Assembly: GCA_027531565.1 (NCBI GenBank)
Contig: JAPZSB010000013.1
Coordinates: 1 to 54,620 of the forward strand
Direction: 5' to 3'
DNA length: 54,620 nt
Origin: Beijerinckiaceae bacterium
Lineage (GTDB): Bacteria > Pseudomonadota > Alphaproteobacteria > Rhizobiales > Beijerinckiaceae
Both the position numbers and the translations under genes were made by a program. Below the pieces are notes generated by a model. That model did no database searches and was not told the DNA's origin. It saw only the letters and a program-made list of their open reading frames with translations. Positions 30,834-51,850 of this stretch are shown here, piece by piece. Each line of letters opens with the position of its first letter. Within the stretch, counting starts at the first letter, position 1.

Positions 30834-30903
30834 GGCCAACCGGCGATCAGGGACTCATCGGAGGTTCGAAGATGCGTCCGGAAAAAGGATGGCAGGAGAG
30901 GAG
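30834..30903. repeat. Left attachment-type direct repeat (attL-like)
   Basis: This 70-bp stretch is a direct repeat of 51780-51850 beside tRNA-Trp. Two blocks are identical: 19 bases (30834-30852 = 51780-51798) and 22 bases (30875-30896 = 51822-51843). After one mismatch GAGGAG also matches. The middle 22-23 bases have diverged. Its final 14 bases (30890-30903) copy the 3' end of tRNA-Trp, including the encoded CCA, with one mismatch. Confidence 0.85.
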
Positions 30904-31076
30904 TCTGCCATTTTGATGTCTCATCGCGTTTCAGTTGGTAATCCCCCCTTTTTGCAACAAAGCAATTCGCATTCTGAGCCCCGAGACAGCCTGAGCCGCG
31001 CCCCGTTTTCCGGACGCTTCGAACGACCGGTTGCGGCGAAACACCTCGGGACCGAGAATGACCGCAAGGGGCGGCG

Positions 31077-31442
31077 CTATCCGGACACCTTCCTGATGTC
31101 CGCATGCGCAATGCGGCTGTCCTCCGGCGCTTCCGAACGCTCGTTCAGCCCATAATCGCGGATCACCGCGGCCACGCGCAGCCGGTAATCCTGGAACACG
31201 CCGCTCCGGCCTTTGGCCTGCGTGGCGCGATGGGCATGGCCGTTGCGCCACGCCGCCATGGCCGCTTCATCGCGCCAGAACGACAGCGACAGAAGCTTGC
31301 CGGGCTCGGCAAGCGACTGGAACCGCTCGATCGAAAGGAAACCGTCAATCCGGAAGAGCTCGTCGCGCAAGGCGGCGGCGAGTTCGAAATAGGTCTCGCG
31401 CTCGCCTTCGGCTGGCCAGACCTCGAAAATCACCGCAATCAT
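31077..31442 (-). CDS. Antibiotic-biosynthesis-monooxygenase (ABM) domain protein
   Basis: The 121-aa protein has the dimeric ferredoxin-like ABM fold: MIAVIFEVWPAEGERETYFELAAALRDEL, then GFLSIERFQSLAEPGKLLSLSFWRDEAAMAAWRNGHAH. Members degrade haem, oxidise quinones or have unknown roles, and the sequence does not decide. It is translationally coupled to the NIPSNAP gene (ATGA overlap at 31439). The pair is divergent to an ArsR regulator. Confidence 0.75.
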   Translation of the reverse strand: MIAVIFEVWPAEGERETYFELAAALRDELFRIDGFLSIERFQSLAEPGKLLSLSFWRDEAAMAAWRNGHAHRATQAKGRSGVFQDYRLRVAAVIRDYGLNERSEAPEDSRIAHADIRKVSG

Positions 31443-31768
31443 GGCCGGGCCAGCCGCGCATGCGGCTCCGAGAGTTTCGTGAGAAAGATCCGGTCTTCGC
31501 GGCGGATGAAGCCCTCCCTGCGTGCGAATTCGAAGGCTTCCCGACCAGCTTTGCTGGCCTTCAGCCGGGCACGATAGGCCTCGTAGGCAGCAAGGCTTTC
31601 AAGCGTATAAACCCCGTAGGCTGTCGTCAGTGAACCCTCATGCGGGCCGAAATATCCGATGAGATCGGCTCCGCAGGGCGGGATCGCCTGGCCCCACATC
31701 TGGGCATAGGTGGCGAATTCGGCCTGCCGGAAGGGCTCAAGTTCATAGCGGATGAAGCAGGTAATCAC
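31439..31768 (-). CDS. NIPSNAP-family protein
   Basis: The 109-aa protein has the same dimeric alpha/beta-barrel superfamily fold as ABM proteins. The family pattern is MITCFIRYELEPFRQAEFATYAQMWGQ and a central GYFGPHEGSLTTAYGVYTLESLAAYEAYR. No biochemical function is known for bacterial members. It is first of a two-gene unit, divergent to the ArsR-like gene, and both genes lie just inside the left island end. Confidence 0.78.
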   Translation of the reverse strand: MITCFIRYELEPFRQAEFATYAQMWGQAIPPCGADLIGYFGPHEGSLTTAYGVYTLESLAAYEAYRARLKASKAGREAFEFARREGFIRREDRIFLTKLSEPHARLARP

Positions 31769-31806
31769 GAGTGGTACTCCTTTGTTCGGGAGCGCCTTGA
31801 TAGGGG

Positions 31807-31859
31807 CATTCGCGGCTGCGATGTTTCGGCGAAGAATGAAGCATTGCCCTGCGCGAATG
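31807..31859. promoter_or_regulatory. Inverted repeat between the NIPSNAP and ArsR genes
   Basis: Perfect 8-bp arms CATTCGCG (31807-31814) and CGCGAATG (31852-31859) lie in the 107-bp divergent promoter region. Spaced this far apart they could be two operator halves for the ArsR-type regulator. Confidence 0.35.
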
Positions 31860-31875
31860 GGATAGGATGCGTGTC

Positions 31876-32625
31876 ATGAAAAACGGTCCTGACATCGCGG
31901 CCCTTGCTTCGCTCATTGGCGACCCCGCACGCGCCAACATTCTCGCTGCACTCATGGGCGGCAAGGCGCTGACCGCGGGGGAATGTGCCGCTGAAGCAGG
32001 GATTTCTGCCCCTGCCGCCTCCGGGCATCTGGCAAGGTTGCTGGATGCGGGCTTGCTGGTGGTCCTCGTGCAGGGGCGGCATCGCTACTACAATCTGGCA
32101 GGACCGGATGTTGCGGAAGCGGTGGAAACGCTGATGGGCCTCGCTGCGCGGGTCGGGCTCAAGCGCACGCGTCCCGGCCCACGGGAAGCCGCGATGCGAA
32201 AGGCGCGCCTCTGCTACGATCACCTCGCGGGGGAGTTGGCAACCGCTCTGTTCGCGCGGCTGGTCGATCGCGGCCTGCTCGTCGCAAGGCCCGAGGGCCT
32301 TGGTCTGTCGCCGCCAGGGCGCTCGCGTTTTCTGGCTGAAGGCATCGATATCGCCGCGCTGGAATCAAAGCCTCGATCACTCTGCCGTACCTGTCTGGAT
32401 TGGTCCGAACGCCGGCCGCATCTTGCGGGCAGTCTTGGCGCCGCCATCGCGAGGCTCGCCATCGAGCGCGGCTGGTGTCGGCGCGAAACGGCCTCGCGTG
32501 CCGTGCATTTCTCAACCGGTGGCGAACAGGCCTTGCTGGGCCTGGCGGGACCAAATCCAGACTACGCGGAAGACGCCGTTGGGCCTCGCGCAGACAGCTC
32601 GGGAAATCGAGCAAAGCGCGCTTGA
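31876..32625 (+). CDS. ArsR-family (winged helix) transcriptional regulator
   Basis: The 249-aa protein has an N-terminal ArsR winged helix (IAALASLIGDPARANILAALMGGKALTAGECAAEAGISAPAASGHLARLLDAGLL, about residues 5-60). A longer C-terminal region has a CRTCLDWSERRPHLAG motif common to this long ArsR subgroup; its two cysteines might bind a metal or react with an oxidant. I chose ATG 31876, with TAGGA eight bases upstream; ATG 31867 is possible. It is divergent to the NIPSNAP-ABM pair, which it probably represses. Confidence 0.82.
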   Translation: MKNGPDIAALASLIGDPARANILAALMGGKALTAGECAAEAGISAPAASGHLARLLDAGLLVVLVQGRHRYYNLAGPDVAEAVETLMGLAARVGLKRTRPGPREAAMRKARLCYDHLAGELATALFARLVDRGLLVARPEGLGLSPPGRSRFLAEGIDIAALESKPRSLCRTCLDWSERRPHLAGSLGAAIARLAIERGWCRRETASRAVHFSTGGEQALLGLAGPNPDYAEDAVGPRADSSGNRAKRA

Positions 32626-32746
32626 GTTCGTTGCTCTGGTCCCCTTCGGAGGTCCTTTGGCGCGCTGGCTGGAAAGGCACACGTGCGGTTTCCGTCTATC
32701 TCCCCGGTGCAACAAACGACCAGGATGGGGGGCGCAAACCCGCCCT

Positions 32747-33151
32747 TCACTCCGGATACCGGCAATCCGCCAGCGTCGACTGGTTAAGATCATCGATGAA
32801 GGCGCGCTCCGCACGGGCCAGGCGTGCCTTGAGGCGGCATTGCGGCATCAGCCGGCAGTTTCCGCCATCCGCCTGGAAACATTCGACGAGCGCGTGGCGC
32901 CCCTCCAACGCGGCCACGACATCGCCGAGGCGGATATCGTGCGCCGGCCGCGCGAGCCGAAAGCCGCCAGCAGCACCGCGCTGGGTCACGATGAAGCCGT
33001 GGCGCGCCAGCTCCCGGATCACCTTGGTCAGGTGATCCCGCGAGAGTGCGAATTCGCCGGCAATCTCCTCGACGGTGTAAAGGCGGCTTTCCCCGCCCGC
33101 CAGTTTCATCAGGGCCCGCAGCCCGAAATCCGTGAAGCTTGTCAATCGCAC
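32747..33151 (-). CDS. nsrR: Nitric-oxide-sensing repressor NsrR (Rrf2 family)
   Basis: An Fe-S cluster repressor that releases DNA when NO attacks the cluster. It has 134 aa from a GTG at 33151 ((M)RLTSFTDFGLRALMKLA), with GGAGGG six bases upstream; the open frame runs on to 33475, but only this start fits the family. A winged helix occupies about residues 1-80. The cluster cysteines are C91, C99 and C105 (CFQADGGNC then C). It is divergent to ric, with two palindromes in the 82-bp gap that are likely its own operators. Confidence 0.9.
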   Translation of the reverse strand: MRLTSFTDFGLRALMKLAGGESRLYTVEEIAGEFALSRDHLTKVIRELARHGFIVTQRGAAGGFRLARPAHDIRLGDVVAALEGRHALVECFQADGGNCRLMPQCRLKARLARAERAFIDDLNQSTLADCRYPE

Positions 33152-33169
33152 GCGTCGCCCTCCGAAAGA

Positions 33170-33184
33170 GGCATTTACAATACC
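33170..33184. promoter_or_regulatory. Putative NsrR box 1 (nsrR side)
   Basis: GGCATT-TAC-AATACC, an inverted repeat with one mismatch in the arms, 18 bp upstream of the nsrR start. It is nearly the reverse complement of box 2, and the centres are 34 bp apart. Similarity to the GCATTT-type NsrR consensus is recognisable but was judged by eye. Confidence 0.6.
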
Positions 33185-33203
33185 GTTTTTGGTGTCGTAA
33201 ATA

Positions 33204-33218
33204 GGCATTGTAAATGCC
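33204..33218. promoter_or_regulatory. Putative NsrR box 2 (ric side)
   Basis: GGCATT-GTA-AATGCC, a perfect 6-bp inverted repeat with a 3-bp centre, 15 bp upstream of the ric start codon. Position suggests repression of ric until NO is present. Confidence 0.65.
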
Positions 33219-33233
33219 GAATTGGAGACCGCC

Positions 33234-33899
33234 ATGGAACAGAACCAAGCCATCCACCCCGATATGCATGTGGGGGAGATCGCCGCCGCTTTGGCGGGCG
33301 CCACAGCCATCTTCAGGAAACACAAGATCGATTTCTGCTGTGGTGGCAATGTCCCTATCGGTGAAGCTCTGGCGAAAAAGAACCTCGATGCGGGCCTTGT
33401 TCTGGGTGAATTGCAGGCTCTCGCGGCCAAGCCGCCGGAAGCCCCCTCCGAGACCATCGCGCTGATCGAGCACATTATCCGGCGCTATCATGACGTGCAC
33501 CGCTCGGAGCTTCCCGAACTGGTCAAGCTGGCGAAACGCGTCGAGGCCGTCCACCGCGATCATGCGGATGTTCCGGCAGGGCTGGCGGATATCCTGGAGA
33601 CAGCCCTGGAAGATCTGGGCGATCATATGCAGAAGGAGGAGCTGATCCTGTTCCCGGCGATGCGCGGCGGCATGGTCGGGATGGTCGATGGTCCGATCTC
33701 GGCGATGCGCGAAGACCATGACGACCACGCGCTGACGATCCGCGCCTTGCAGGAAATCACCCATGGCTACCAGCCGCCGGCAGGGGCATGCCGGTCGTGG
33801 CAGGCGCTTTATCGGGGTGTCGACAAGCTCGTCACGGATCTGACGGAGCACATGCACCTTGAGAACAACGTCCTGTTCCCCCGTTTTGAAAGCCGGTGA
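33234..33899 (+). CDS. ric: Iron-sulfur cluster repair di-iron protein (Ric/YtfE/ScdA)
   Basis: Repairs Fe-S clusters damaged by NO and oxidants. The 221-aa protein begins at ATG 33234, with GGAGA five bases upstream. It has the N-terminal ScdA motif with the paired cysteines C35-C36 (IDFCCGG). The C-terminal hemerythrin-like domain has candidate di-iron ligands at H85, H131, E135, H162, H206 and E210 (EHMHLENNVLFP). It is divergent from nsrR, and a small unknown gene follows 3 bp later. Its work here is to protect the Fe-S-rich nitrate reductase and other proteins during nitrate respiration. Confidence 0.92.
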   Translation: MEQNQAIHPDMHVGEIAAALAGATAIFRKHKIDFCCGGNVPIGEALAKKNLDAGLVLGELQALAAKPPEAPSETIALIEHIIRRYHDVHRSELPELVKLAKRVEAVHRDHADVPAGLADILETALEDLGDHMQKEELILFPAMRGGMVGMVDGPISAMREDHDDHALTIRALQEITHGYQPPAGACRSWQALYRGVDKLVTDLTEHMHLENNVLFPRFESR

Positions 33900-33902
33900 G
33901 CC

Positions 33903-34262
33903 ATGCCGCGCCCATCGAACCGCGCGGCAACCGACAATCCCGCCGTTGATGGGCTGATCCGTATTCTCGCTGACATCGAGTTCGACTGCGATTGCCGGAA
34001 GCGGCTCGATGCCGCTCTGGCGCGCTATTCGAAATTCTCGGACCTACGCCGGCGCAAGCTGGCCCTGTCGGGCGCGCGCGAGCGCGCCCTTCGCATTTCA
34101 GGTCTTCTGGACCTTCTGAAGGAACTTGAAGACCTGCCTCTCGCGGAACCGGATCACTCGGTCTTCGATGAAATGGCTGATCTTTTCCGTGACGCGGCGA
34201 CAGCGGCATCCGAGGCTGAGTCGCTGCTTCGCGCGATCGCCGGCGACCGTGATCGCCTATAG
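33903..34262 (+). CDS. Small protein of unknown function downstream of ric
   Basis: A 119-aa, mostly helical, soluble protein that I do not recognise. The only striking feature is a DCDC sequence near residue 28 (EFDCDCRKRLDAALARYSKFSD). The rest is charged helices typical of small helical bundles. It starts 3 bp after ric and would be co-expressed with it under NO control. Its last six bases overlap the end of the DUF2478 gene on the other strand. A role beside Ric (metal delivery or partner) is only a guess. Confidence 0.6.
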   Translation: MPRPSNRAATDNPAVDGLIRILADIEFDCDCRKRLDAALARYSKFSDLRRRKLALSGARERALRISGLLDLLKELEDLPLAEPDHSVFDEMADLFRDAATAASEAESLLRAIAGDRDRL

Positions 34263-34844
34263 GCCGGAACCGCGAGGTTCCATTCCGGTGCCGGCCGCTG
34301 CTGCCTGACCATAGCCCAGGATCGCAAGGAGCCCCGCCACGGTCTCGGCTTCGCCTTCGAGGGCGATTTCCTGGCCCATGCCGCCGGCAAAGGCGCGCCA
34401 ACTCTCGATGTTCCGCCAGGGAACAGCGATGACAAGCGGCATGCCGGATCCGATCACGGTGCTGATCAGAGGGCGGAAGCCGCCACCCTCGGATTCCGAC
34501 TTGCCGAACTTGTTGAGGATCACGAGTTCCGGCTCCTGGGCGAGAGACTCCTCGACCAATAGCGAAGCCGTCAGCAACTGGCTGACATCGAGCATGCATC
34601 CCCTCGCTTCCGGCCCGCGATCCTGCGAGATCGCGACATGACGACCGCTGCCGAGATCCTCGAGAACCATGTCGCAGCGCGAACGGCCGGGCCGGGGCGC
34701 ATTGTGCTGGACGAGGCCGGCCAGGCTGACATCCTGTTCGAGCAGCGCCATCGCGAGGCGCGTCAGCACCCGATCGGCCCCGGCAGCGTCGGTATAGACA
34801 AGGGCGAGAAGTGCGGGTTCCGGGCTTTCATGGGATCGCGACAT
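34257..34844 (-). CDS. DUF2478 protein (putative NTPase, molybdenum-associated)
   Basis: The 195-aa protein matches the DUF2478 family: LLALVYTDAAGADRVLTRLAMALLEQDVSLAGLVQ, PELVILNKFGKSESEGGGFRPLI and WRAFAGGM. The family is often encoded with molybdenum-enzyme and transport genes and resembles nucleotide-dependent kinases, but its role is unproven. The start is ATG 34844, with AGGAG eight bases upstream, rather than GTG 34853. It is last in the nar gene run, 15 bp after mogA, so a step in cofactor supply is likely. Confidence 0.78.
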   Translation of the reverse strand: MSRSHESPEPALLALVYTDAAGADRVLTRLAMALLEQDVSLAGLVQHNAPRPGRSRCDMVLEDLGSGRHVAISQDRGPEARGCMLDVSQLLTASLLVEESLAQEPELVILNKFGKSESEGGGFRPLISTVIGSGMPLVIAVPWRNIESWRAFAGGMGQEIALEGEAETVAGLLAILGYGQAAAAGTGMEPRGSGL

Positions 34845-34859
34845 TTTTGGCACTCCTGT

Positions 34860-35402
34860 TCAGGGGTTCGCGGAAGGGCGGAAGGCCTTCAACCGTTCAG
34901 GCCGCGTCTCGAGAGGCGCGGCACCGATCAGGTCGAGGCAATAGGGAATGGCGGGAAAAACGGCATCAAGGCAGGTTGCGATGGCCGAGGGCTTGCCCGG
35001 CAGGGCAATGATCAGGCAGCGCCCCCGCAATCCGGCCTCCTGGCGCGACAGGATCGCGGTCGGAACCTCGCGAAGGCTCGCGCGGCGCATTTCCTCCCCA
35101 AACCCGGGCAGAAGGCGTCCGACGACCCGGGCCATGGCTTCCGGCGTCACGTCCCGCAGAGCCGGGCCTGTTCCACCCGACATCAGCACGAGATCGCAAT
35201 GCGCCCTGTCGACAAGATCGATCAGCGTTTCCGCAATCGCCTCGATCTCATCGGGAACAAGGCGGTATTCGCCCTGCCAATCGCTGGCCAGCACCTCGCC
35301 GAGATAGGCCTCGATCGCTGGCCCGGAAGCATCACGATAGGTGCCGGCATGGGCCCTGTCCGACGCGACGACGATCCCGATCCGGGCGGCAAGGGTCTTC
35401 AT
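34860..35402 (-). CDS. mogA: Molybdopterin adenylyltransferase
   Basis: Activates molybdopterin with ATP before molybdenum insertion. The 180-aa MogA/MoaB-fold protein has the conserved SGGTGP loop (residues 75-80) followed by RDVTPEA. The start at 35402 overlaps the carbonic anhydrase stop by four bases (35399-35402); the frame is open further upstream without homology. Its presence in the nar operon means Mo-cofactor maturation is made together with the nitrate reductase. Confidence 0.88.
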   Translation of the reverse strand: MKTLAARIGIVVASDRAHAGTYRDASGPAIEAYLGEVLASDWQGEYRLVPDEIEAIAETLIDLVDRAHCDLVLMSGGTGPALRDVTPEAMARVVGRLLPGFGEEMRRASLREVPTAILSRQEAGLRGRCLIIALPGKPSAIATCLDAVFPAIPYCLDLIGAAPLETRPERLKAFRPSANP

Positions 35403-36160
35403 GAGCGGGGTCCTTCCAGCCGCCCGTCGCAGGCACAATCCGCGCCATGCTCGCCGGGCAGCGCCTCGAAAGCCGAAAGCGCGTGCCGGCGCATGCCGCT
35501 GACAGGTTCGACATTCATGGTGACGCGGTGGTCGATCGAGGGGAGCTGATCGCGCTCCCCGACGGAAGAGAGATGGGGCCCGAGATCCCGCAGCAGCCCG
35601 TCATGGATGCCGTAGATCCAGCCATGAAGGTGAAGTTCCTGCCCCCGCCGCCAGGCATTTTCCACCAGCGGGGTCGCAGCAAGCCGCCGGACCTGCATCT
35701 CGATATTGATTTCGCAGAGCCGGTCGAGCCGGTCCTCCGGCTTGGGGATGCGGTCAAAATGGGCCCGGTGCTTCCGGTACAGCATGGTCAGCGGCTGGAG
35801 CCAGTGGTCGAGCATGGCGCCGCGCTGCTCGGCGATGGCGCGATAGACCCCACCACAGCCATAATGGCCGCAGACGATGACATGGCGCACACGCAAGGTG
35901 TCGATGGCGAATTCCAGCACCGAGAGGATGTTGAGATCGCTCGTATGGACAATGTTCGCGATGTTGCGGTGGACAAAGACGGCGCCGGGATCAAGGCCAA
36001 GCACATCATTGGCCGTCACCCGGCTGTCCGAACAGCCGATCCACAAGTAATCCGGCGTCTGTTGCTCGGCCATGCGACGGAAATAGTCCGGATCGAGCCG
36101 GGTCTTCTCGTTGGCCCAGGTGACATTCCGGTCAAACAGATGATCAAGCGTCTGCGACAT
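35399..36160 (-). CDS. Beta-class carbonic anhydrase
   Basis: Zinc enzyme interconverting CO2 and bicarbonate, 253 aa. The active-site set is complete: C43, D45 and R47 in CSDSR, plus H99 and C102 in GHYGCGG. It is longer than the common 200-220 aa, with an acidic Cys-containing tail (HGADCACDGRLEGP). It overlaps hemerythrin by 17 bp and mogA by 4 bp, so it belongs to the nar run. The family assignment is firm; its purpose in nitrate respiration (pH balance, CO2 from oxidation, or bicarbonate supply) is inference. Confidence 0.93.
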   Translation of the reverse strand: MSQTLDHLFDRNVTWANEKTRLDPDYFRRMAEQQTPDYLWIGCSDSRVTANDVLGLDPGAVFVHRNIANIVHTSDLNILSVLEFAIDTLRVRHVIVCGHYGCGGVYRAIAEQRGAMLDHWLQPLTMLYRKHRAHFDRIPKPEDRLDRLCEINIEMQVRRLAATPLVENAWRRGQELHLHGWIYGIHDGLLRDLGPHLSSVGERDQLPSIDHRVTMNVEPVSGMRRHALSAFEALPGEHGADCACDGRLEGPRS

Positions 36161-36743
36161 GAAATGCCTCCCGACGGGCTTTCATGGCCGCGCTGAGCCC
36201 GTGTAACTCGGCCTTCCTGAGACGGACTCCGGCAATGGCGAGCACGACGGCATTCTCGACAGCGAGGTGCCGGCCCTCCCGCGTGCTGTAGGTCAGCATC
36301 ATCCCGCAAAGCCGCCGCTCGAGCGGAACCGGATCATGGTCGGCGTTCAGGATGGTCGAAAGCCCCTGATCGATCGCACGGACCAAGGCCTCATTCATCG
36401 CATGGTCCTCGCTCAATCGGGCCAGAACCTCGGCAAGGCCATCTTCCGGCAGGGCAAGCCGACGCAGGATCGGGAACAGATCCTGCTCCTCATCAGCCCA
36501 GTGAAGGGGCAGTTCGGATGCCAGGAACGCATGCAATCGCACCGCCTGATCCCGCTGGATTTCGGCCTGGGTCGCGGCGTAGCGCAGGCCTGCGAGATAG
36601 CTCCTGTGGCGGTGATGCTCGGCCATGAGATAATCCAGCGGCCGCTCCAGAAGGGCGACCGGCAATGGCGGGGGCAACGGTCTAGGCGGCCGCGGCATCG
36701 GCAATGCCGCTTTCGGGGACTGACTAGCGCGGGGCCTGGCCAT
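36144..36743 (-). CDS. Hemerythrin HHE-domain protein
   Basis: The 199-aa protein has a Pro-rich N-terminal 30 residues, then a four-helix HHE domain with likely di-iron ligands: histidines in AEHHRHR (43-44), H81 and E85 (HWADEEQDLFP), H114 (SEDHAMN), and a later H and E in RHLAVEN. Such proteins bind O2 or NO or store iron. It overlaps both neighbours, by 20 bp upstream and 17 bp downstream. It may buffer NO or sense oxygen for the nitrate reductase. A second hemerythrin-type protein, Ric, is in the same island. Confidence 0.85.
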   Translation of the reverse strand: MARPRASQSPKAALPMPRPPRPLPPPLPVALLERPLDYLMAEHHRHRSYLAGLRYAATQAEIQRDQAVRLHAFLASELPLHWADEEQDLFPILRRLALPEDGLAEVLARLSEDHAMNEALVRAIDQGLSTILNADHDPVPLERRLCGMMLTYSTREGRHLAVENAVVLAIAGVRLRKAELHGLSAAMKARREAFHVADA

Positions 36744-37083
36744 GGTGATGATCCTCCCCGCATGAGCATGCAGGCTGACAGCTGGGGTGAGGGTTCCGCT
36801 CTTCGCTGTCGCGCTTCAGCGCCCAGTGCAGGACGAAGGTCAGGAAGACCTCCGCAGGTCGCTCGCCCCGTTCCAGCCTGCCCATGACGGCGAGCCAATC
36901 CTCGTCATTGGCAAGGCGCGCGAACCGGCGGACGGCGCCAGCGACATAATCTCCCCGGGTTTCCTCGAACAGGGCGGCTTCGGTGTCGATCGCGGCCAGC
37001 AGGACAAGGTCGCCAAGGCCGATCAGGGCCTCCTCGGCGAGTCTGTCGTCTGTCAGATCGCGCAGGATATGGCTCAGCATCAT
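36724..37083 (-). CDS. Nar-associated small protein with Cys/His-rich tail
   Basis: A 119-aa protein I cannot assign to a named family. The body (ILRDLTDDRLAEEALIGLG... DYVAGAVRRFARLANDEDWLAVMGRLE) is helical. The end, CQPACSCGEDHHHG, concentrates three cysteines and three histidines within 14 residues and looks like a metal-binding tail. It starts 7 bp after the PPIase gene and overlaps the hemerythrin gene by 20 bp, so it is translationally coupled to it. Iron delivery to hemerythrin or assembly of the reductase are possibilities only. Confidence 0.65.
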   Translation of the reverse strand: MMLSHILRDLTDDRLAEEALIGLGDLVLLAAIDTEAALFEETRGDYVAGAVRRFARLANDEDWLAVMGRLERGERPAEVFLTFVLHWALKRDSEERNPHPSCQPACSCGEDHHHGQAPR

Positions 37084-37090
37084 GGGCGCC

Positions 37091-37948
37091 TCACTGGACC
37101 AGAGGGGTGGCGGAGGTTTCCAGAACGACGCCCTCGATTGCGGCGAGGCTTGCCAATCGCTGGACGTAGTGGCGGGCGGCGGACGCCCCGGCGCGCTCCT
37201 GAAGGAAGCGGGCGATCCGGTTCCGGACGGTTGCGAAAGGCAGCTCCCTCCCCTCGATCCGGCGATGCACCGTCACGATGTGGAAGCCGTAGCGGGACTC
37301 CACGATCGAGAAGCGGTCCGGCCCGACCGGCAGTTGCGGCAGCATGATTTCGAATTCCGGCACGGTCTGACCCGTGGAGATCTGGCCGAGATTGCCGCCC
37401 ATCGCACGGGATGGGCAATCCGAAAGGGCCTCGGCCAGGCCTGCGAAGCGCGCAGGCGCTGCTTCGACCTCGCGGAGGATCCCCTCGGCACGCTCCCGTG
37501 CGGCTTGCAATGCCGCCGGCCCGCTCTCGCGCAAACCGATCAGGATATGCGCGACTTCGTAGAGATCCGGCGTGCGGAACGCCTTCAGGTTATTGGCATA
37601 GTAGCGCTGCAGCTCCTCCTCCCCGGGAACTGGTGAGGACACTTCCTGTTCCAGCAGCGCCCGGATCCGCGCTTCCTCGTCCGTCTCGCGGCGCCCTTCG
37701 CCATCACTCAACGGAACCGCGACGATCTCCAGGCGAGTGGCTTCCTGAAGGAGCAACTCCCGGATCACGAGCGCGCGGGCCGCGGCCTGCCAGGCCTCGA
37801 TCGGCTTGGAGGCCGGATGGTTCTGGGTTTCCTGTGCAATCGCCTCGCGCGGGATGGTGACGCCGTTCACCGTGACGGTGCGAGGCTTGGCGGAGATGGT
37901 CGGCTTCACGGTGCAGCCGGCTTTGGGGGTATCGAGGACAATCGTCAT
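37091..37948 (-). CDS. Parvulin-type peptidyl-prolyl isomerase of the nar cluster
   Basis: The 285-aa protein has no signal peptide, so it is cytoplasmic. A SurA/NifM-like N-terminal helical region (about 35-120) precedes a PpiC rotamase domain (about 125-240): VAHILIGL, GGNLGQISTGQTVPEFE and SRYGFHIVTVHRR. A PPIase of this kind follows narI in many denitrifier nar clusters and is thought to help mature the reductase. It starts at ATG 37948, 5 bp after narI, with GAGG overlapping the narI stop. Confidence 0.85.
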   Translation of the reverse strand: MTIVLDTPKAGCTVKPTISAKPRTVTVNGVTIPREAIAQETQNHPASKPIEAWQAAARALVIRELLLQEATRLEIVAVPLSDGEGRRETDEEARIRALLEQEVSSPVPGEEELQRYYANNLKAFRTPDLYEVAHILIGLRESGPAALQAARERAEGILREVEAAPARFAGLAEALSDCPSRAMGGNLGQISTGQTVPEFEIMLPQLPVGPDRFSIVESRYGFHIVTVHRRIEGRELPFATVRNRIARFLQERAGASAARHYVQRLASLAAIEGVVLETSATPLVQ

Positions 37949-37953
37949 GGTCC

Positions 37954-44733: not shown

Positions 44734-44764
44734 GGTCTGTCGCCTCTCTGGCTGGCAATTCGGA

Positions 44765-47518
44765 TCAGGCGGGATTGGCGACAGGTGTCGCCGGGCGGGG
44801 CGCGCGGCCCCGTTCGATGTCGTGCAGCAGGCCGCCGCGCCGGGTGTAGAACCACCAGGTGATGGCGATGCAGGTGATGTAGAAGCCGAGGAAGGCGTAG
44901 AGCGCGCCGGTGGCAGACCCGGTCATGGCAATCGAGGTGCCGAAGCTCTTCGGGATGAAGAAGGCGCCATAGGCCGCCACTGCCGAGGTGAAGCCGATGA
45001 TCGCCGCGCTTTCCTTGTCGGATTGCTTGACGAGATCCTGGCCCTTCAGCTGGGGTTCGAGGCGCGCCACTTCCAGCCGCATGATCGCGGGGATCATCTG
45101 GAAGGTCGAGGCATTGCCGACGCCGGTCGCCGCGAACAGGAACAGGAAGCTCGCGAAGAAGACCGGGAAGGCGCTCGGGTTGCCCTTCATGCCGATCGCA
45201 TAGAGGATTCCGACCACGCCGAGACACATGGCCACGAAAACCCAGAAGGTGATGCGCCCGCCGCCGATCCTGTCGCAGGCCTTGCCGGAGAAGGCGCGGG
45301 AAACCGCACCGACCAGCGGGCCAAGGAAGGCATAGTGCAGGGCATTGACCTCCGGGAAGAGGATCTTCGAGAGCAGCGGAAATCCGGCCGAATACCCGAT
45401 GAAGGAGCCGAACGTGCCGGTATAGAGCCAGCACATCACCCAGTTATGGGTCCGGCGGAAGATGACCGCCTGGTCAGCGAAGCTGGCCTTCATCGAGGCG
45501 ATGTCATTCATTCCGAACCAGGCCGCGAAGGCCGAGGCGATGATGAAAGGCACGAAGACGAAGCCGGCATTCTGGAGCCAGAGCGTGGTTGTCACGCCGT
45601 TGAGTGTTGCCGTTTGCGGGTTGCCGCCAAGCGCGCCGAAGACGCCGGCGGTGATGGCGAGCGGCACCACGAACTGCACCACGCTGACCCCGAGATTGCC
45701 GAGGCCGGCATTGATGGCGAGCGCGTTGCCCTTCTCCGCCTTCGGGAAGAAGAAGGAGATATTGGCCATCGAGGAGGCGAAGTTGCCCCCGCCGAAGCCG
45801 CAGAGCAGCGCCAGGGCCAGGAAGATCCAGTACGGCGTTTCCGGGTTCTGGACCGCGAAACCCATGCCGAGCGCCGGGATCAGCAGCGACCAGGTGGCAA
45901 GGGTGGTCCAGAGCCGCCCGCCGAACATCGCCGGCATGAAGCTGTAGAAGATCCGGAGGGTCGCGCCGGAAAGCCCGGGCAGCGAGGCCAGCCAGAAGAG
46001 CTGCTCGTTGGTGAAGGCGAAGCCGACGCTGGGCAGCCGCGCCACGACGACGGACCAGACCATCCAGACCGCGAATGACAGCAGCAGGCAGGGCACGGAG
46101 ATCCACAGGTTCCGGCGGGCGATGGCTCTGCCCTGCCCCTGCCAGAACGTCGCGTCTTCGGGCCGCCAATCCTGGATCGCACCCTTTGCGGCGAGCGCAC
46201 CCTCCTGTTCCGGACCATGGATGGGTTGCATTTCCGGCAATTGCGGCAGCTTGTTCAGCGTGGCGCCCATCGCCTGCTTTTCCATCGACCGGATGGCGAA
46301 ATGCATCCAGAGCATGGCGATGGTGACAATGGCGAAGAGCAGCCAGAAGCAGCTCTGCCACACGCCGGTCAGGTCATTCAGCGCCCCGAAAGCGATCGGG
46401 AGTACGAAGCCGCCCAGCCCGCCGACGAGGCCGACCACGCCGCCCACGGCGCCCACCCGGTCCGGGTAATAGACCGGAATGTGCTTGTAGACCGCCGCCT
46501 TGCCGAGGCTCATGAAGAAGCCCAGCACGAAGGCCGTGGCGACAAAGCCGACGAGCCCCATCCGTGTGTTGAACTCCACCGGGCCGCGAATGCCTTCGAC
46601 GATGTAGCTCGTCGGCGGATAGGACAGGATGAAGGTGCAGATGATCGAGACCAGGAAGGTCCAGTACATGATCGTCCGGGCGCCGTACTTGTCCGAGAGA
46701 TGGCCGCCATAGGCGCGGAAGATCGAGGCGGGGATGGAATACATCGCGCCGATCATGCCGGCCGTGGCAATATCGAGCCCGTAGACGCCGATCAGGTAGC
46801 GCGGCAGCCACAGGGCGAGGGCGACAAAGGCGCCGAACACGAAGAAATAGTAGAGCGAGAACCGCCAGACCTGGATGTTGCGCAGCGGCTCCATCATGGC
46901 CGAGAGCGGTTCAGGCTTGGCACCGGTCGCACGACGGCGGGCGAGGTCAGGGTCATCCTTGGTGAAGAGGAAGAACAGGATGCCCATGATGCCGAGGGCA
47001 AGCGCCCAGACCATGGCCACACTCTTCCAGCCATAGGCGACCATGATGACCGGCGCTGCGAACTTGGTCACCGCCGCGCCGACATTGCCCGCGCCGAAGA
47101 TGCCGAGTGCCGTGCCCTGCTTCTCCTTCGGGTACCATTTGGCGACATAGGCGACGCCCACCGAGAAGGAGCCGCCGGCAATGCCGACGCCGAGCGCCGC
47201 GATCAGGAAGGTCGGGTAGTCATAGGCGAAGGTGAGCAGGAAGGTCATGACCGCAGCGGTCAGCATGGTCGCGGTGTAGACCATCCGGCCACCATATTGG
47301 TCAGCCCAGATGCCGAGGAGCAGCCGGATCAGCGATCCGGTAAGGATCGGCGTCCCGACCAGCAAGCCGAACTGGGTATCACTCAGCCCCAGATCCTTTT
47401 TGATCTGGATGCCGATGATCGCGAAAATCGTCCAGACCGCGAAACAGACCGTGAAGGCAATGGTCGAAAGCCAGAGTGCCCTGTTCTGGTCCGATGCGGT
47501 GACCGTGGCGACAGCCAT
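44765..47518 (-). CDS. narK: Fused NarK1-NarK2 nitrate/nitrite transporter
   Basis: The 917-aa protein is two major-facilitator transporters joined in one chain. Residues 1-420 form a NarK1-like unit (AGGSFSVGVAYVAKWYPKEKQGTALGIFGAGN). A linker of about 45 residues (420-465) follows, then a NarK2-like unit with its own nitrate signature (GGGNFASSMANISFFFPK, then EKGNALAINAGLGNLGVS). About 24 membrane helices are expected. In Paracoccus the same fusion provides nitrate/proton symport and nitrate/nitrite antiport. It is first gene of the nar run, with an FNR-type box 86 bp upstream. Confidence 0.95.
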   Translation of the reverse strand: MAVATVTASDQNRALWLSTIAFTVCFAVWTIFAIIGIQIKKDLGLSDTQFGLLVGTPILTGSLIRLLLGIWADQYGGRMVYTATMLTAAVMTFLLTFAYDYPTFLIAALGVGIAGGSFSVGVAYVAKWYPKEKQGTALGIFGAGNVGAAVTKFAAPVIMVAYGWKSVAMVWALALGIMGILFFLFTKDDPDLARRRATGAKPEPLSAMMEPLRNIQVWRFSLYYFFVFGAFVALALWLPRYLIGVYGLDIATAGMIGAMYSIPASIFRAYGGHLSDKYGARTIMYWTFLVSIICTFILSYPPTSYIVEGIRGPVEFNTRMGLVGFVATAFVLGFFMSLGKAAVYKHIPVYYPDRVGAVGGVVGLVGGLGGFVLPIAFGALNDLTGVWQSCFWLLFAIVTIAMLWMHFAIRSMEKQAMGATLNKLPQLPEMQPIHGPEQEGALAAKGAIQDWRPEDATFWQGQGRAIARRNLWISVPCLLLSFAVWMVWSVVVARLPSVGFAFTNEQLFWLASLPGLSGATLRIFYSFMPAMFGGRLWTTLATWSLLIPALGMGFAVQNPETPYWIFLALALLCGFGGGNFASSMANISFFFPKAEKGNALAINAGLGNLGVSVVQFVVPLAITAGVFGALGGNPQTATLNGVTTTLWLQNAGFVFVPFIIASAFAAWFGMNDIASMKASFADQAVIFRRTHNWVMCWLYTGTFGSFIGYSAGFPLLSKILFPEVNALHYAFLGPLVGAVSRAFSGKACDRIGGGRITFWVFVAMCLGVVGILYAIGMKGNPSAFPVFFASFLFLFAATGVGNASTFQMIPAIMRLEVARLEPQLKGQDLVKQSDKESAAIIGFTSAVAAYGAFFIPKSFGTSIAMTGSATGALYAFLGFYITCIAITWWFYTRRGGLLHDIERGRAPRPATPVANPA

Positions 47519-47596
47519 GCTCGCCCCCTCTTCATGGAAAACGCGCTCTCAGGTCGAACGCGGAAGCCATGCTTGGCAGGGGGGAGGATCCAGGCC

Positions 47597-47610
47597 TTGA
47601 TTTGAATCAA
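47597..47610. promoter_or_regulatory. FNR/NarR-type box upstream of narK
   Basis: Perfect TTGAT-TTGA-ATCAA. Its centre is 86 bp from the narK start codon. Class II activation (centre at -41.5) would place transcription start near 47562, leaving a 44-nt leader, which is sensible. Confidence 0.85.
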
Positions 47611-47711
47611 CCCAGAAAAGGCCAGAAAATCTTTCAAGAACAGATACTTAATTTATCAAGTCAGGACGCATTTTCAATCAAGACATAGCTTTTGTTCTGT
47701 CAAATCAGGAC

Positions 47712-47725
47712 TTGATCAATATCAA
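47712..47725. promoter_or_regulatory. Second FNR/NarR-type box, in the narR leader
   Basis: Perfect TTGAT-CAAT-ATCAA centred 53 bp before the narR start. If it acted at -41.5 for narR, the start would fall on the ribosome-binding site, so autorepression or an upstream role for narK is more likely than activation of narR. Confidence 0.75.
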
Positions 47726-47771
47726 GGACGTGATTGCGCATTTGACGAAAGGTGCAGAAGGAGGTGCCGTC

Positions 47772-48470
47772 ATGCGCGATGAAGACTTGCAGGAAATGCG
47801 GCAATTGCCGCTCTTCGAGGGCGTCGGGGCAGCCTATGTCGACTCGCTCCTCCGCAGTGCCTTTGTCCAGCGGTTCCCGGCCCATGTGGAACTGGTCCAT
47901 GAGGGAGATCCGGCAGATTTCCTCTACGTCATCGTGCAGGGGCAGGTGGAGATCTATGCCAGCTACCGGGATCGCGAGACCACGATCTCCGTCCTCGGGC
48001 CGGGCAACAGCTTCATCATCGCGGCGGTCCTGCTGGACCGGGTCTACCTGAAATCCGCGCGCGGCCTCACGCCCACCCGCATCCTGATGCTGCCGGCGGA
48101 AGCCGTCCGCGAAGGCTTTGCCGAGGACGCGCATTTCGCACGCGCCCTCGCGGTGGATATGGCGCTGGCCTATCGCGGTGTCGTCAAGGAATTGAAGAAC
48201 CAGAAACTGCGCTCCAGCCTGGAGCGGTTGGCCAACTGGCTGATCGCCGAGGATGAGAAGGGCGGCAGCACCGGAAAGCTGGACATTCCCTATGACAAGA
48301 AAGTCCTGGCCTCCCGCCTCGGCATGGCGCCGGAGGTCCTGTCGCGCTCGATCGCTGCGCTGATCCCCTACAAGGTCGATATCCGCGGGCGGCATGTCCA
48401 GCTCAATGACCGCGAGGCGCTGTTGTCCCTGGCCCGGCCCGTCCCCACAATCGATGATCCCGCGTGTTAG
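47772..48470 (+). CDS. narR: Crp/Fnr-family regulator NarR
   Basis: Activator of the nar operon in response to nitrate/nitrite in Paracoccus-type bacteria. The 232-aa protein starts at ATG 47772, where AAGGAGGT lies six bases upstream. The N-terminal cyclic-nucleotide-like barrel lacks the FNR cysteine cluster, so it does not sense oxygen through an Fe-S centre. The C-terminal helix-turn-helix (KKVLASRLGMAPEVLSRSIAAL) has the E-x-x-S-R pattern that reads TTGAT half-sites. It is divergent from narK, as in Paracoccus. A frame open from 47712 lies over the second FNR box. Confidence 0.87.
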   Translation: MRDEDLQEMRQLPLFEGVGAAYVDSLLRSAFVQRFPAHVELVHEGDPADFLYVIVQGQVEIYASYRDRETTISVLGPGNSFIIAAVLLDRVYLKSARGLTPTRILMLPAEAVREGFAEDAHFARALAVDMALAYRGVVKELKNQKLRSSLERLANWLIAEDEKGGSTGKLDIPYDKKVLASRLGMAPEVLSRSIAALIPYKVDIRGRHVQLNDREALLSLARPVPTIDDPAC

Positions 48471-48789
48471 GCCAGATCCGATGCGTATCTTGCCCGTGCA
48501 TCCCACATGATGGAATTTGCGCCGGCCGCCCTCGCCTTCGGCGTCTCGCCCTGGCCGGTCTAGCACCAGCATGGGTCAGGAAGCGCACTCCGTCGGGCGC
48601 CCGGCGATTGGCGAGTCCCTGGAACTGGAGCGTCATGAGTGCCGCTTCCGGGTTGGCTCCCCAGGACATCGAGGGAGCCTTCAAAGCCGAACAAGGGTGC
48701 CAAGCCGAGGCAAGAACCGCCCGCTCAAGACCAGTGCCAGATCCCTTGCTGACAGGCGATGCGGAGAAAGACCTGCCTCTTGACCTTGT
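48471..48789. other. Gap between narR and the chemoreceptor gene, no gene seen
   Basis: About 320 bp with several short overlapping frames on both strands and none recognisable. No convincing terminator for either converging gene was seen. The sequence is high-GC and could be decayed gene material. Confidence 0.4.
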
Positions 48790-51033
48790 TCAGGCCGCGA
48801 GCGATTTCAGGAAGCGGCTCACTTCCTGGCGCAAGCGGGCAATGTCCGCGTTCAGCAGGTCAGCCTGGGTCAGCATGATCCCGGTTGCTTCCTCTGTCTT
48901 GGCCGTCGCTGTCGAAACCTCGGTCATGCTGGCCGCCACTTCGTTCGTGCTGGCAGCAGTCTGCTGAGCGCTCAGCGCGATCTCGTCGGTCGCCGAGCGT
49001 TGCTGCTCGACAGCCTCGGAGATGCTGCTCGCGGTGCCGCCAATAGCCTTGATGGTCGATGCGACCGATTCAAGGGCGCCAGCCGCTTCACCCGTCTTTT
49101 GCTGGATCGACGCGATCTGCGCGACCACCTGGTCGGCGGCGCGCGCGGTCTGGCTGGCCAGGGCCTTCACCTCCGAAGCGACGACGGCAAAGCCACGCCC
49201 GGCTTCACCTGCGCGGGCCGCCTCGATGGTGGCATTGAGAGCCAGGAGATTGGTCTGGCTCGCAATGGTACCGATCACCTGCACGATCGCCCCGATATTC
49301 TCGGAAGCGGCGGACAATTCGCGAACCACGCCGACAAGACGCTGCGAGTCGCTGGTTGCCCGACCGGCGATGGCGGATGATGCATCGACCTGCTGGCGAA
49401 TGTCGCCGATGGACATGCGCAACTGCTCGGCAGCCGACGCCACTGTGGTGACAGAGGCCGAGCTTTCTTCCGATGCCCTTGCGACAGCTTCGGCCTGCAT
49501 CTGTGTCGCGCTGGCACTCGCGCGAACATCGGCCACGCGGGCGCTGAGGGCGACGGACGATTTTTCGACTGAATCGGCAAGGGAAAGAACAGCCGATTCG
49601 AAGTTCTGGGCCAGTTCCTGCCGATCCGTCATATTCTCGAACGCCACCATCACCCCGGTCTTTTCGCCTTGCTTCGAGCGGATGGTCGCCAGCGTGAGCT
49701 GGAAGGTCAGATGACCGAAGCGGGCGCGATGCCTCGTGCCGGCATCGGGCAATGTCTCCAGGCGACCGGCTGTCAGGCCGACACCTTCAAAGAAGATATC
49801 CGCCTTCGTGCCCTCCAGTCGATCAGGCGCGACGGGCAGCCGGTCAGCGACGTGATCGAGCAAACCGACCAAAGCCGGGTTCACATAATCGATCACCCAG
49901 CCTTTGCCGCGATGGATGGTCATCAGCCCCGTGGGCATGCCGGCAACGGTCTGATGCAGCCGGACCGCATTCTCGACCTCGATGGTGAGCAGTCCGAACG
50001 ATCGGGCAATGTCGCCCACCTCGTCACCGCGCCCGGCCAGAGACGCAAGCGTGGCATCCTCGCCAGCCGTCAGGCGGTCCATGGCACCGGCAGTCTGCAC
50101 CAGCGGCCGTGCAAACCAGGTCCCCATCAGGAAGCCGATGAGAATGACGCATGGCAGAGCCATCAGCCCGTAGAGAACCATGGATCGCCGGAACGCTTCC
50201 ATCCGGGCCGCAAACGGGGCGCCATCGACAAAGACGGCCAGCATCAGCCCTTCCCCGAGATCGCTCGGCAGATGGTGCAGGTGAGCCAGATAGGATCTGC
50301 CCTCTGTCATGGCCTCGACGAGATCCGTGCCGCCAGCCAGAGCGCGGGCATAATCCGCCTCGCCGATGACAGGGACATTGCCGTCCGGGAACGTGGAAGC
50401 CGTGGCCTTGCGCTTGTAGTACAAGGCAACCTCGGCGCCTGTACGGGCCTTGATTTCGGCCACAACCGCCCGGGTCGGGCGCGAACCCACCCTGAGGGTG
50501 CCGATGACACCCGATCCGGCCTTGACAGGCGCGACAGAACCAATCGTGGCATCGCCCGATGTGGGCGAGACGACCAGACCCGACGTCAGCTTCCCTTCGG
50601 TGGCTGCCTGGATATCCTTGAGCTTGCCCTTGTCGTCGCCCTTCACGCTTGGGTTGTGGCCTCGGCCGATGACAATTCCGATCGCGTTGGTGACCTCGAA
50701 GGTCGAAACGGTCGGATCCAGCCGCTTCAGTTCATCGAATTCCGTGATGATCGCGTTGAGCCGCTCGTTGTCCTCGCCCTTCTGCATCAGGGCCGCGAAA
50801 TCGCGTTTCCGGGAGACGAGATCGGCATAGATCGCGGCCCGGGTCTGGATGGCCTCCATGGCCCTGCCCGCCTCGCGTGCAGCGGCCCGTGCTTCGGCAG
50901 CATGCTCGGATTGTGCGGCATTCTCGACCACGGCGGCGGAAATCAGTGTGGCAACCGCAAAGCCGACAGCGAAAACGAAGGCAGCAGCGGCCGCATACTT
51001 GATTTTCAGGCTCCGGATTCGAAACTTTCGCAT
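48790..51033 (-). CDS. Methyl-accepting chemotaxis protein with periplasmic sensor and PAS domain
   Basis: Transmembrane chemoreceptor, 747 aa from ATG 51033. The first membrane helix is at about 13-35. A roughly 245-residue periplasmic region of the single-cache type ([33 protein letters not shown]) ends at a second helix ([21 protein letters not shown]). HAMP, a PAS-like segment ([24 protein letters not shown]) and the signalling coiled coil with tip [20 protein letters not shown] follow. There is no C-terminal NWETF-type tether. In this island it may steer cells to nitrate or other electron acceptors, but the ligand is unknown. Confidence 0.9.
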
Positions 51034-51369
51034 GCTCTGCCCCCCAAGGTTCGCGCAGCCCCCCAGCTGACAGCTCAATCAGAGCTAGAATGTTGACTCT
51101 AATAACTGATTAAAAAAGAGGCAGCTCGTATACAAAATTCAGAATATGGCCTTGGCTCCGAAAGGCATGGCATTGGGCGTTGTGAACCACGTGTGTTTGA
51201 GACGAAAAGGCTCGGTTGAATTCGACATCCGCTTGGCTGTGGAACGGCTCCTTCCCCCGGCAGCGGAGATGGGGGCGTTCTGGCTTGTGCCGATGCCGGG
51301 TCGGCCCGGATTCCTCTCGCAGCAGAGCGCCGGATTTGACCCGGACGCCGGGCTCTGGACGCCCATCCT
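51034..51369. other. Region between chemoreceptor and integrase remnant, no clear gene
   Basis: An AT-richer stretch (about 51085-51150) upstream of the chemoreceptor gene, likely its promoter, followed by 220 bp in which 75-codon frames stay open on both strands. Neither product is recognisable; decayed mobile-element sequence next to the integrase remnant is plausible. Confidence 0.4.
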
Positions 51370-51720
51370 CTAACCCGCTCTCCGTGCGAGGTCCGCCAAC
51401 ATGCTCGCGGCCTTTTCGGGGTCGCTCTGGATCAGCCTCGGCGCCAGCTTTTCAAGGTCGGCCGTACTGAGGGTCTGGCTGTCGCGCCCGATCCCGGCAA
51501 TCCGTTCGGCCCTGCGCGCCTCATCGGGCTCTGCATAGGATTCGAAGGTCGTTTCGATGCGCTCATGACCGAGATTCATGCTGAAGGCGATGATCTCCTC
51601 CGCAACGGGCCGCAGCGACAGGACATGCCGCGCCAGCATGTGGCGGATGACATGCGGCACATGGGCATGGAAGCCAGCCGCGGTGAACGCGTTGCGAACA
51701 ATGTCGCGGACCTGGGAAGA
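51370..51720 (-). pseudogene. Tyrosine integrase, C-terminal remnant
   Basis: Only about the last 117 residues of a phage-type integrase remain. Readable homology begins at VRDIVRNAFTAAGFHAHMPHVIRHML (51711 downward) and continues to LGHERIETTFESYAEPDEA. The HVIRH box (H-x-x-R), the LGH histidine and the catalytic tyrosine in FESYA are kept. The N-terminal DNA-binding part and the first catalytic arginine are lost; upstream codons run into a tRNA-like fragment and then a stop. It lies about 120 bp from the tRNA-Trp 3' end, where the island's own integrase is expected. Confidence 0.8.
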
Positions 51721-51731
51721 CCCGCACCATC

Positions 51732-51752
51732 GGGGGAAGGATTCGAACCCGG
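51732..51752 (-). repeat. T-arm-like tRNA fragment at the broken end of the integrase
   Basis: On the minus strand GGGTTCGAATCC followed by TTCCCCC resembles the T-arm and acceptor strand of a tRNA, and its first 12 bases equal those of the nearby tRNA-Trp T-arm. It is not a full tRNA. It may be a second attachment-site scar. Confidence 0.45.
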
Positions 51753-51760
51753 ATCTTTTG

Positions 51761-51796
51761 CTGATCGCCTCTGGCCGAAGGCCAACCGGCGATCAG
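51761..51796. repeat. Two-step hairpin downstream of tRNA-Trp
   Basis: Outer arms CTGATCGCC / GGCGATCAG (9 bp) enclose TGGCC-GAA-GGCCA. The right arm belongs to the direct repeat, so the left island copy keeps only that arm. It could be part of the tRNA-Trp terminator or a recombinase arm site. Confidence 0.5.
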
Positions 51797-51836
51797 GGTT
51801 TCAATCGTGGGTTCGACACGACGTCCGGAAAAAGGA

Positions 51837-51850
<14 letters not shown>
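51780..51850. repeat. Right attachment-type direct repeat (attR-like) overlapping tRNA-Trp
   Basis: Partner of the repeat at 30834-30903, with two identical blocks of 19 and 22 bases 20,947 bp apart. The last part overlaps the 3' 14 nt of tRNA-Trp. The minus strand just beyond the tRNA has a T5 tract (TCCTTTTTCC), kept in both copies. Confidence 0.85.

Follow-up and report, generated by a model that had tools for sequence, protein, structure and literature searches.

How did a block of nitrate-respiration genes come to lie beside a tRNA-Trp gene, and do the repeats at its ends mark the event that placed it there? The question is raised by a 54,620-nt stretch of DNA (the window, to whose full length all coordinates refer) from a Beijerinckiaceae bacterium (GCA_027531565.1, contig JAPZSB010000013.1; genome G000). 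A first-pass annotation had described positions 30834-51850 as a nitrate-respiration island precisely bounded by duplicated tRNA-Trp 3' ends. Our analysis indicates that the segment from 30904 to about 51739 is very probably the remnant of a tRNA-Trp-targeting integrative element, sited in a spare copy of the tRNA end and carrying a mosaic cargo that consists chiefly of a nitrate-respiration (nar) cassette of about 16 kb. On the sequence comparisons, the repeats are units of an older array rather than the insertion's own scar.

The repeat pair and the tRNA-Trp gene

The best self-match in the window aligns 30833-30903 with 51779-51850 (61 of 72 positions identical, one gap, E 1.9e-14), and the next-best matches have E 4e-4. 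This alignment bears out the two stretches, their block order and their spacing as first annotated; of the identical blocks given as 19 and 22 bases, the second is indeed 22 and the first measures 20. ARAGORN finds a single tRNA in the window, an intact tRNA-Trp(cca) on the minus strand at 51837-51913, whose 3' end is overlapped by the right repeat copy, as had been claimed. The last 14 nt of the tRNA lie inside that copy, and the other 58 of its 72 bases lie outside the tRNA. The left copy matches 13 of these final 14 nt, in agreement with the one mismatch noted earlier. A search of the same genome with 30750-30960 returned three places: the two repeat copies and G000:C3:214832-214876, which matches 30889-30933, that is, a tRNA-like end plus 30 bp of inserted DNA.

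Empty and occupied sites in relatives

The genus sample held 17 genomes, that of the window included. One of these, G002, is Rhabdaerophilum sp. SD176, on which the genus name used here rests; G012, G013 and G014 are labelled Beijerinckiaceae or Hyphomicrobiales metagenome-assembled genomes. In G002, G013 and G014, all of the same genus, DNA matching the window up to 30729-30903 runs straight into DNA matching 51732-51808 onward, without nar. Relatives that join the left flank to the tRNA-Trp side without the 21 kb, for which the first-pass annotation had proposed a search, therefore exist. Occupied and empty sites are both present among close relatives, with the window filled, these three genomes empty, and G012 holding another element.

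From tRNA-Trp to secE there are 34.3 kb in the window, 13.2-13.5 kb in G002, G013 and G014, and 1.0-11.8 kb in seven other genus members with both genes on one contig. The two genes share a contig in 11 of the 17 genomes, and in six they are split or one was not found. The ten genomes with a shared contig other than G000 have gaps of 1.0-13.5 kb, and wherever narG was found in them it lies on another contig. Fifty-nine genomes of the family and order carry the best tRNA hit and SecE on one contig; the gap is 44-497 bp in 45 of them, which argues that a short spacing is common and that the locus has grown within Rhabdaerophilum. The remaining 14, known by distance alone, have larger gaps of 0.9 kb to 2.6 Mb; they comprise G042:C5, G056:C1, G080:C1 and 11 other genomes.

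The 13 kb between secE and the repeats (17566-30832), also present in G002, G013 and G014, encode a TRAP transporter, a shikimate-type protein, an ABC transporter (modABC-like by eye) and a GNAT protein. Both ends of the window (1-149 and 54388-54620) match DNA past the right flank in relatives and may be two copies of tuf.

A tandem array of tRNA ends that probably predates the insert

We scanned the window and 21 loci for the last 26 nt of tRNA-Trp, allowing up to five mismatches (seven in the window). Counting the intact tRNA, there are two copies in G013 and three in G014, in units of about 110 bp. One copy was found at 13 further loci and none at six, and the window holds the intact tRNA copy and a damaged copy at 51725. 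In G013 and G014 the tandem units, which include the tRNA 3' end, sit downstream of tRNA-Trp and beside it, without an insert. In an alignment of these loci (A1), the window reads as an array interrupted within one of its tRNA-end copies: the left part ends at GGAGAGGAG, at 30903, and the right part restarts at about 51739 with GATTCGAACCCGG, followed by one whole unit and then the tRNA. The right repeat of the first-pass annotation is this last unit.

Several earlier statements change accordingly. That the insertion made the repeat pair, and that the pair marks both of its ends, is not supported, since both repeats occur, in tandem and in the homologous place, in relatives whose site lacks nar. 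The first-pass annotation had itself named nar-lacking relatives with both repeats as evidence against it; they exist in a variant form, with the repeats in homologous rather than unrelated positions. Because these relatives have the tandem repeats and no insert, repeat divergence dates the array and not the insertion. What survives of the proposed old insertion at tRNA-Trp is that an integrase-type element appears to have inserted there and later decayed. Precise bounding holds at the left edge; on the right, the insert ends at about 51739, 111 bp before the end claimed.

Full array units are strong hairpins, with z scores of -3.9 in the window, -3.5 in G014 and -2.3 in G013, and the left half unit of the window is not outstanding (z -1.4). 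The hairpin of the unit at 51740-51836 is closed by complementary TTCGAACCC-type stretches. An Rfam search of the G014 array at E <= 1 returned the tRNA itself and one sub-threshold match, with no RtT hit, and a known RNA was thereby rejected as the identity of the unit. A literature search found no description of tRNA-end arrays as spare attachment sites.

Ends of the element

At its left edge the insert begins at an attachment (att) core at 30889-30903, which retains 14 of 15 positions. At the right junction, near 51739, the core is deleted and a joint between recombinase sequence and array stands in its place. The integrase remnant that had been reported beside the tRNA is confirmed at 51373-51744 on the minus strand, where it corresponds to residues 248-371 of a 371-residue query from G012 (88% amino acid identity); its Phage_integrase match is weak (19.3 bits versus a cut-off of 27.1). 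At the DNA level, 51364-51739 matches the last third of the G012 recombinase gene with 89% identity, and the match stops at the array.

In G012, tRNA-Trp (L111:2963-3039) is followed by a helix-turn-helix-like open reading frame (ORF), which scores below the Pfam cut-off, and then by a gene for a 373-aa tyrosine recombinase (4618-5739). A second contig (L143) carries the arm, the core CTCCTCCCCTGCCAT, and then the same left flank with the GNAT gene. The attL-like and attR-like joints of G012 share CTCCTCCCCTGCCAT and are located on two contigs. At the end of the L143 contig, 14 codons match the N-terminus of an integrase on G000:C3 (E 6e-5). Among the G012 cargo near the recombinase are an AIRS-family gene (SelD-like) and what looks, by eye only, like formate dehydrogenase sequence.

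The arm recurs on G000:C3 (29 of 30 positions) about 100-150 bp upstream of this intact 418-aa tyrosine integrase, which has an arm-binding domain and which we take to be of the P4 type. Compared with the window, it gave no match better than E 0.31, and within the island there is no intact cognate integrase, only the 124-codon recombinase fragment. Because the arms of both C3 and G012 lie beside integrase sequence, the left edge of the window looks like an attR that has kept its arm and lost the neighbouring integrase. With a related recombinase-bearing element at the same tRNA-Trp in G012, these features argue for a decayed tRNA-integrated element in the window, its cargo being mosaic. Pairs of a recombinase of about 370-390 aa with an integrase of about 420-470 aa, roughly 2-3 kb apart, occur at five other places (G002:C2, G001:C2, G001:C9, G006:C23 and G000:C12). 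The joint at the C3 integrase locus (G000:C3:213332-216376, L003) resembles, by eye, a tRNA-Ser 3' end.

The nar cassette at other loci

NarG was detected at E <= 1e-100 in 33 of 100 genomes, G000 included. The block 32728-48549 is colinear at about 90% identity in G002 and G013, as is 34233-48483 in G014, in every case on a contig other than that of the tRNA-Trp site. As the sister genomes carry it elsewhere, nar was probably relocated to the window locus as cargo.

Flanks of up to 9 kb on each side of nar were compared for 66 pairs of loci from 12 genomes, scoring shared stretches of at least 150 bp; those of G006, G007 and G008 are cut by contig ends. Any flank stretch is shared by 15 pairs. 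Three of these are the nsrR-ric edge, and six lie on the DUF2478 side and probably represent the trimmed edge of the nar block itself. In another pair, G013 and G014, the shared stretch is a 5.5-kb neighbour that flanks nar on one side in one genome and on the other side in the other; the remaining five are short (150-610 bp, at most 75% identity), including an ArsR gene in G006 and the window. The 5.5-kb neighbours (G013:C6:174053-179508 and G014:C17:973997-979471) lie in an arrangement resembling a circle cut open at two separate places.

In some relatives nar again lies near a tRNA gene. In G002 it belongs to an island (G002:C19:489189-536706; L099, L100, L119) that runs from tRNA-Ser(gct), with a 618-aa integrase directly behind the tRNA, to a 16-bp sequence 47.4 kb away that repeats the 3' end of this tRNA exactly. 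The block is 0.16 kb from tRNA-Arg in G009, and a nar fragment is 1.2 kb from tRNA-Ser in G008. In the DNA examined, neither of the latter loci has a second tRNA-end copy nearby, and the nar loci of other relatives have no tRNA that close.

Divergence at four-fold sites across 11 genes of the nar block (nine in G014) is 0.297 to G013, 0.289 to G002 and 0.288 to G014; for nine genes of the adjoining 13 kb it is 0.284, 0.258 and 0.289, respectively. The values are 0.18-0.19 for fusA, rpoC, rpoB and rplJ, and 0.35-0.38 for the right flank. The GC content of the island is 0.636 versus 0.629-0.671 outside, and its tetranucleotide distance to the 17.6-30.8 kb segment (0.144) is the lowest of 21 segment pairs. 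The tetranucleotide comparison suggested by the first-pass annotation thus does not set the island apart, and a recent foreign origin by composition was rejected. With composition and divergence like those of the neighbouring backbone and the cassette present elsewhere in sister genomes, nar does not look newly foreign. A plasmid source was likewise rejected: 107 PLSDB records match, none covers 80% of the query, and the best cover 37-38% at 75-77% identity.

NarG and RpoB trees disagree on G003 and G007. In approximately unbiased (AU) tests of clades picked after the trees were viewed, NarG rejects an RpoB-like grouping (p-AU 3e-67) and a G003+G007 clade (3e-5), and RpoB rejects a NarG-like grouping (7e-7). 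This conflict suggests that nar probably moved between species earlier in the genus. As far as the consulted portions of the literature go, we found no description of nar islands at tRNA genes.

Mosaic cargo and a dispersed repeat

The segment 31090-32546 matches G014:C17, G013:C11, G002:C21 and G012:C108 at 78-84% and G006:C1 at 75%, and the matches of the chemotaxis gene, at 77-79%, are in G012:C2, G013:C11 and G002:C21. The places in G002, G013 and G014 that match these two pieces lie away from nar.

In G002, G013 and the window, the left edge of nar falls within a copy of an intergenic repeat of about 62 bp. A model trained on copies away from the edges found 21 copies at E <= 0.05 in 1.28 Mb, a non-random sample made up of nar and tRNA-Trp neighbourhoods, NIPSNAP and chemotaxis-receptor loci, 235 kb of G000:C3 and three 20-kb pieces. 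At that threshold it matched four of eight nar edges, namely both in G002 (3e-11 and 1e-6), the left one in G013 (8e-4) and position 32686 in the window (0.024). It missed the right edge of G013, gave E 0.4 at the left edge of G014, and found no match at the right edges of G014 and the window. Relative to nar, the edge copies all face the same way. Two control searches of reversed sequence, made with the first model, whose seeds included edge copies, gave no matches.

The copy at 31021 in the window is not at a nar edge. Two others follow recombinase genes at a distance of 91-95 bp, one in the G002 island (491400) and one in the G012 element (5834). The repeat also occurs in L225, L217, L116, L243 and elsewhere. 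Rfam gave no match for two copies. Inspection by eye of the consensus of 18 copies (alignment A2) revealed no RYYYAAC/GTTRRRY ends, which we take to be the integron attC motif. The idea that the NIPSNAP and chemotaxis-receptor loci of relatives are bounded by the repeat was rejected: matches there reach only E 0.2-0.6, at least 1.3 kb away, and the one strong match is 3.5 kb away, in G012.

From its position at some nar edges, the repeat is a possible relocation mechanism. Tentatively, the repeat might serve in Rhabdaerophilum as a cassette recombination boundary, with integrative elements bearing a copy right after their recombinase gene, with modules including the 16-kb nar block, flanked by equally oriented copies, moving between islands and the chromosome through recombination at these copies, and with the spare attB copies letting incoming islands land without harm to the tRNA; we hold this broader scheme to be rather doubtful.

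Gene content of the island

Features of the island are collected in the table; its ORFs were assigned by Pfam and NCBIfam scans, with some short ORFs outside the scan.

Table. Features between the two repeats and at the adjoining tRNA gene (window coordinates)
Feature	Position	Strand	Basis or remark
Left array unit	30833-30888		Chromosomal, ancestral DNA downstream of tRNA-Trp (spacer and half hairpin); aligns with G013, G014 and G012 (A1)
attR core	30889-30903	-	14/15 identical to tRNA-Trp acceptor end and to 15-bp core deduced from G012
Element arm adjoining attR	30904-30933		29/30 at G000:C3; 2-mismatch copy at G012 attR
Dispersed ~62-bp intergenic repeat copy	31021-31082	+	E 3.3e-4, model trained without this copy
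ABM-domain monooxygenase ORF	31077-31442	-	Pfam PF03992
NIPSNAP-family ORF	31439-31768	-	Pfam PF07978
ArsR-type helix-turn-helix regulator	31867-32625	+	Pfam HTH_20/HTH_5
Weak dispersed-repeat copy, left edge of nar cassette	32686-32743	+	E 5e-3 first model; E 0.024 edge-blind model
NsrR-like Rrf2 regulator	32747-33475	-	Domain in C-terminal part of ORF; below NCBIfam NsrR cut-off
RIC/YtfE-type iron-sulphur repair di-iron protein	33222-33899	+	Pfam/NCBIfam
DUF2478, Mog-type molybdopterin adenylyltransferase, carbonic anhydrase and hemerythrin-domain ORFs	34257-36743	-	Pfam/NCBIfam
PPIC-type peptidyl-prolyl isomerase ORF	37091-38284	-	Profile scan
narI	37954-38685	-	TIGR00351
narJ	38704-39585	-	TIGR00684
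narH	39458-40984	-	TIGR01660
narG	40996-44733	-	TIGR01580
Two-domain (fused) NarK-type nitrate/nitrite transporter	44765-47518	-	Two stretches of TIGR00886
CRP-family regulator, FtrB-like	47712-48470	+	Pfam/NCBIfam
nnrU stub, 18 codons, in frame	48507-48563	+	Comparison with G002 NnrU
Methyl-accepting chemotaxis protein	48790-51078	-	Profile scan
Tyrosine recombinase C-terminal remnant, cut at array	51373-51739	-	G012 recombinase comparison
Pre-existing array unit	51740-51836		5' part of tRNA-Trp 3'-end copy, long hairpin, spacer
Intact tRNA-Trp(cca)	51837-51913	-	ARAGORN

The description of the island as a self-contained nitrate and nitric oxide package was too strong. Its scanned ORFs include no nitrite or nitric oxide reductase and no conjugation genes, nnrU is reduced to a stub, and the genes at its two ends are of NIPSNAP, ABM and ArsR type on one side and a chemotaxis receptor on the other. 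G002 carries a full NnrU (227 aa, PF07298) at the corresponding place. The loss in the window lies between short direct repeats seen in the G002 gene, and nar homology in G014 likewise stops within the first codons of nnrU (L097, right nar edge).

Proposed history and alternative explanations

The empty sites, the array, the att core with its arm, the ends in G012, the truncated recombinase and the other nar loci are read directly from the sequences; from them we infer the following order of events. Before the insertion, the DNA downstream of tRNA-Trp would already have contained tandem units of about 110 bp, each with the last 26 nt of the tRNA and thus with a complete 15-bp attachment core. 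An integrase would have inserted the element into one spare copy, so that one unit and the real tRNA came to lie to its right and another unit to its left. The integrase expected beside attR would then have been lost, and a deletion on the tRNA side would have taken away the other arm together with the first two thirds of a second recombinase. Given both losses, the element should no longer excise by itself.

Several observations weigh against this history. The two G012 contigs, presumably the ends of one element, are not joined, and an intact form of the element with nar was seen in no genome examined. G002 has a site with neither array nor element, and its array, to judge from this site, was either lost or never gained. 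The integrase that placed the element is gone and 124 codons of another recombinase are left; either of them may have acted. The recombinase of G012 is 89% identical to the remnant in DNA versus 80-84% in the chromosomal flanks, so that the two elements probably arrived separately. Finally, G006 also has an ArsR-type gene (67%) on the corresponding side of nar; instead of being separate cargo, the gene may be part of an older nar neighbourhood.

Other histories have to be set against the same data. If a single integration at the tRNA-Trp 3' end had brought in a foreign nitrate island and created the repeat pair as attL and attR, the repeat pair, its tRNA overlap, the integrase remnant and the empty sites would all be explained, and all of these are real. 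However, the tandem repeats of G013 and G014, present without an insert, largely refute this account; the tRNA covers 14 of the 72 bases of the right copy, the insert stops to the left of that copy, and composition and divergence resemble those of the backbone. We regard it as quite improbable. An unlikely but somewhat better candidate is that homologous or illegitimate recombination through short dispersed repeats, not an integrase, placed nar, with the attachment-like features left by an older element. It draws on the 62-bp repeat, which G002, G013 and the window have at nar edges in a single orientation relative to nar, and on the separate loci that the island modules occupy in relatives. 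But the outer left edge is the core and arm of an integrase element and the right edge is a recombinase remnant; the outer event thus looks like insertion of an element, and recombination of this kind can hold for the inner cargo only.

The similar divergence of nar and backbone would also fit an ancestral position of nar at this locus, from which the sister genomes lost or moved it. The gaps of 1.0-13.5 kb in the ten other genus genomes, with narG on another contig where found, speak against it, as do those in most family and order genomes, the larger ones being known by distance alone. Moreover, the insertion interrupts a tRNA-copy unit of which G013 and G014 have the unbroken form, and we give this possibility very little weight. 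Insertion of an integrative element into a spare tRNA-end copy therefore remains our preferred explanation.

Relation to known systems and significance

The locus is ordinary in kind; the array of spare attB copies and the wandering nar cassette are its interesting parts. It resembles tRNA-integrated islands with tyrosine integrases, which we take to be those called P4-type, in having an att core in the tRNA acceptor end, an arm sequence, paired recombinases in related copies, and both empty and occupied sites. Unlike these islands, the window copy has lost its integrase and sits in a spare tandem tRNA-end copy, not in the tRNA itself. At tyrT of E. coli, tandem repeats each contain the tRNA-Tyr 3' end; the array is similar in that its units hold the end of the neighbouring tRNA, whereas the tRNA and the unit differ and RtT gives no match.

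Published mobile elements offer partial parallels, as far as the consulted portions of the reports describe them. CGI48 of Shewanella putrefaciens is a composite genomic island in tRNA-Trp that excises when integrase and excisionase are expressed, with attachment sites of 50 bp at the tRNA 5' end (PMC8978831). Both it and the window island are composite and lie at tRNA-Trp, but the latter has a 15-bp core at the tRNA 3' end, is decayed and carries nar. The nitrate respiration conjugative element of Thermus thermophilus also places nar genes on mobile DNA (PMC5748679, PMC6282519), in a different vehicle from that of the window, whose scanned ORFs lack conjugation genes. The 62-bp repeat bears a candidate likeness to Tn3-derived miniature elements (TIMEs), short dispersed elements associated with moving gene modules (PMC4133298).

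A matched repeat at a tRNA gene need not be the scar of the adjacent insertion; here, the repeats are units of an older array that may offer spare attachment sites. A single tRNA provides a natural series, from no array (G002) through an array (G013, G014) to an array with an insertion (the window), together with direct insertion (G012). The respiration cassette has different flanks in four closely related genomes, with G013 and G014 sharing one neighbour on opposite sides. The movement of respiratory cassettes between islands and the chromosome thereby becomes testable within a small genus, one member of which, Rhabdaerophilum sp. SD176, lacks a metagenome-assembly label and so may be an isolate.

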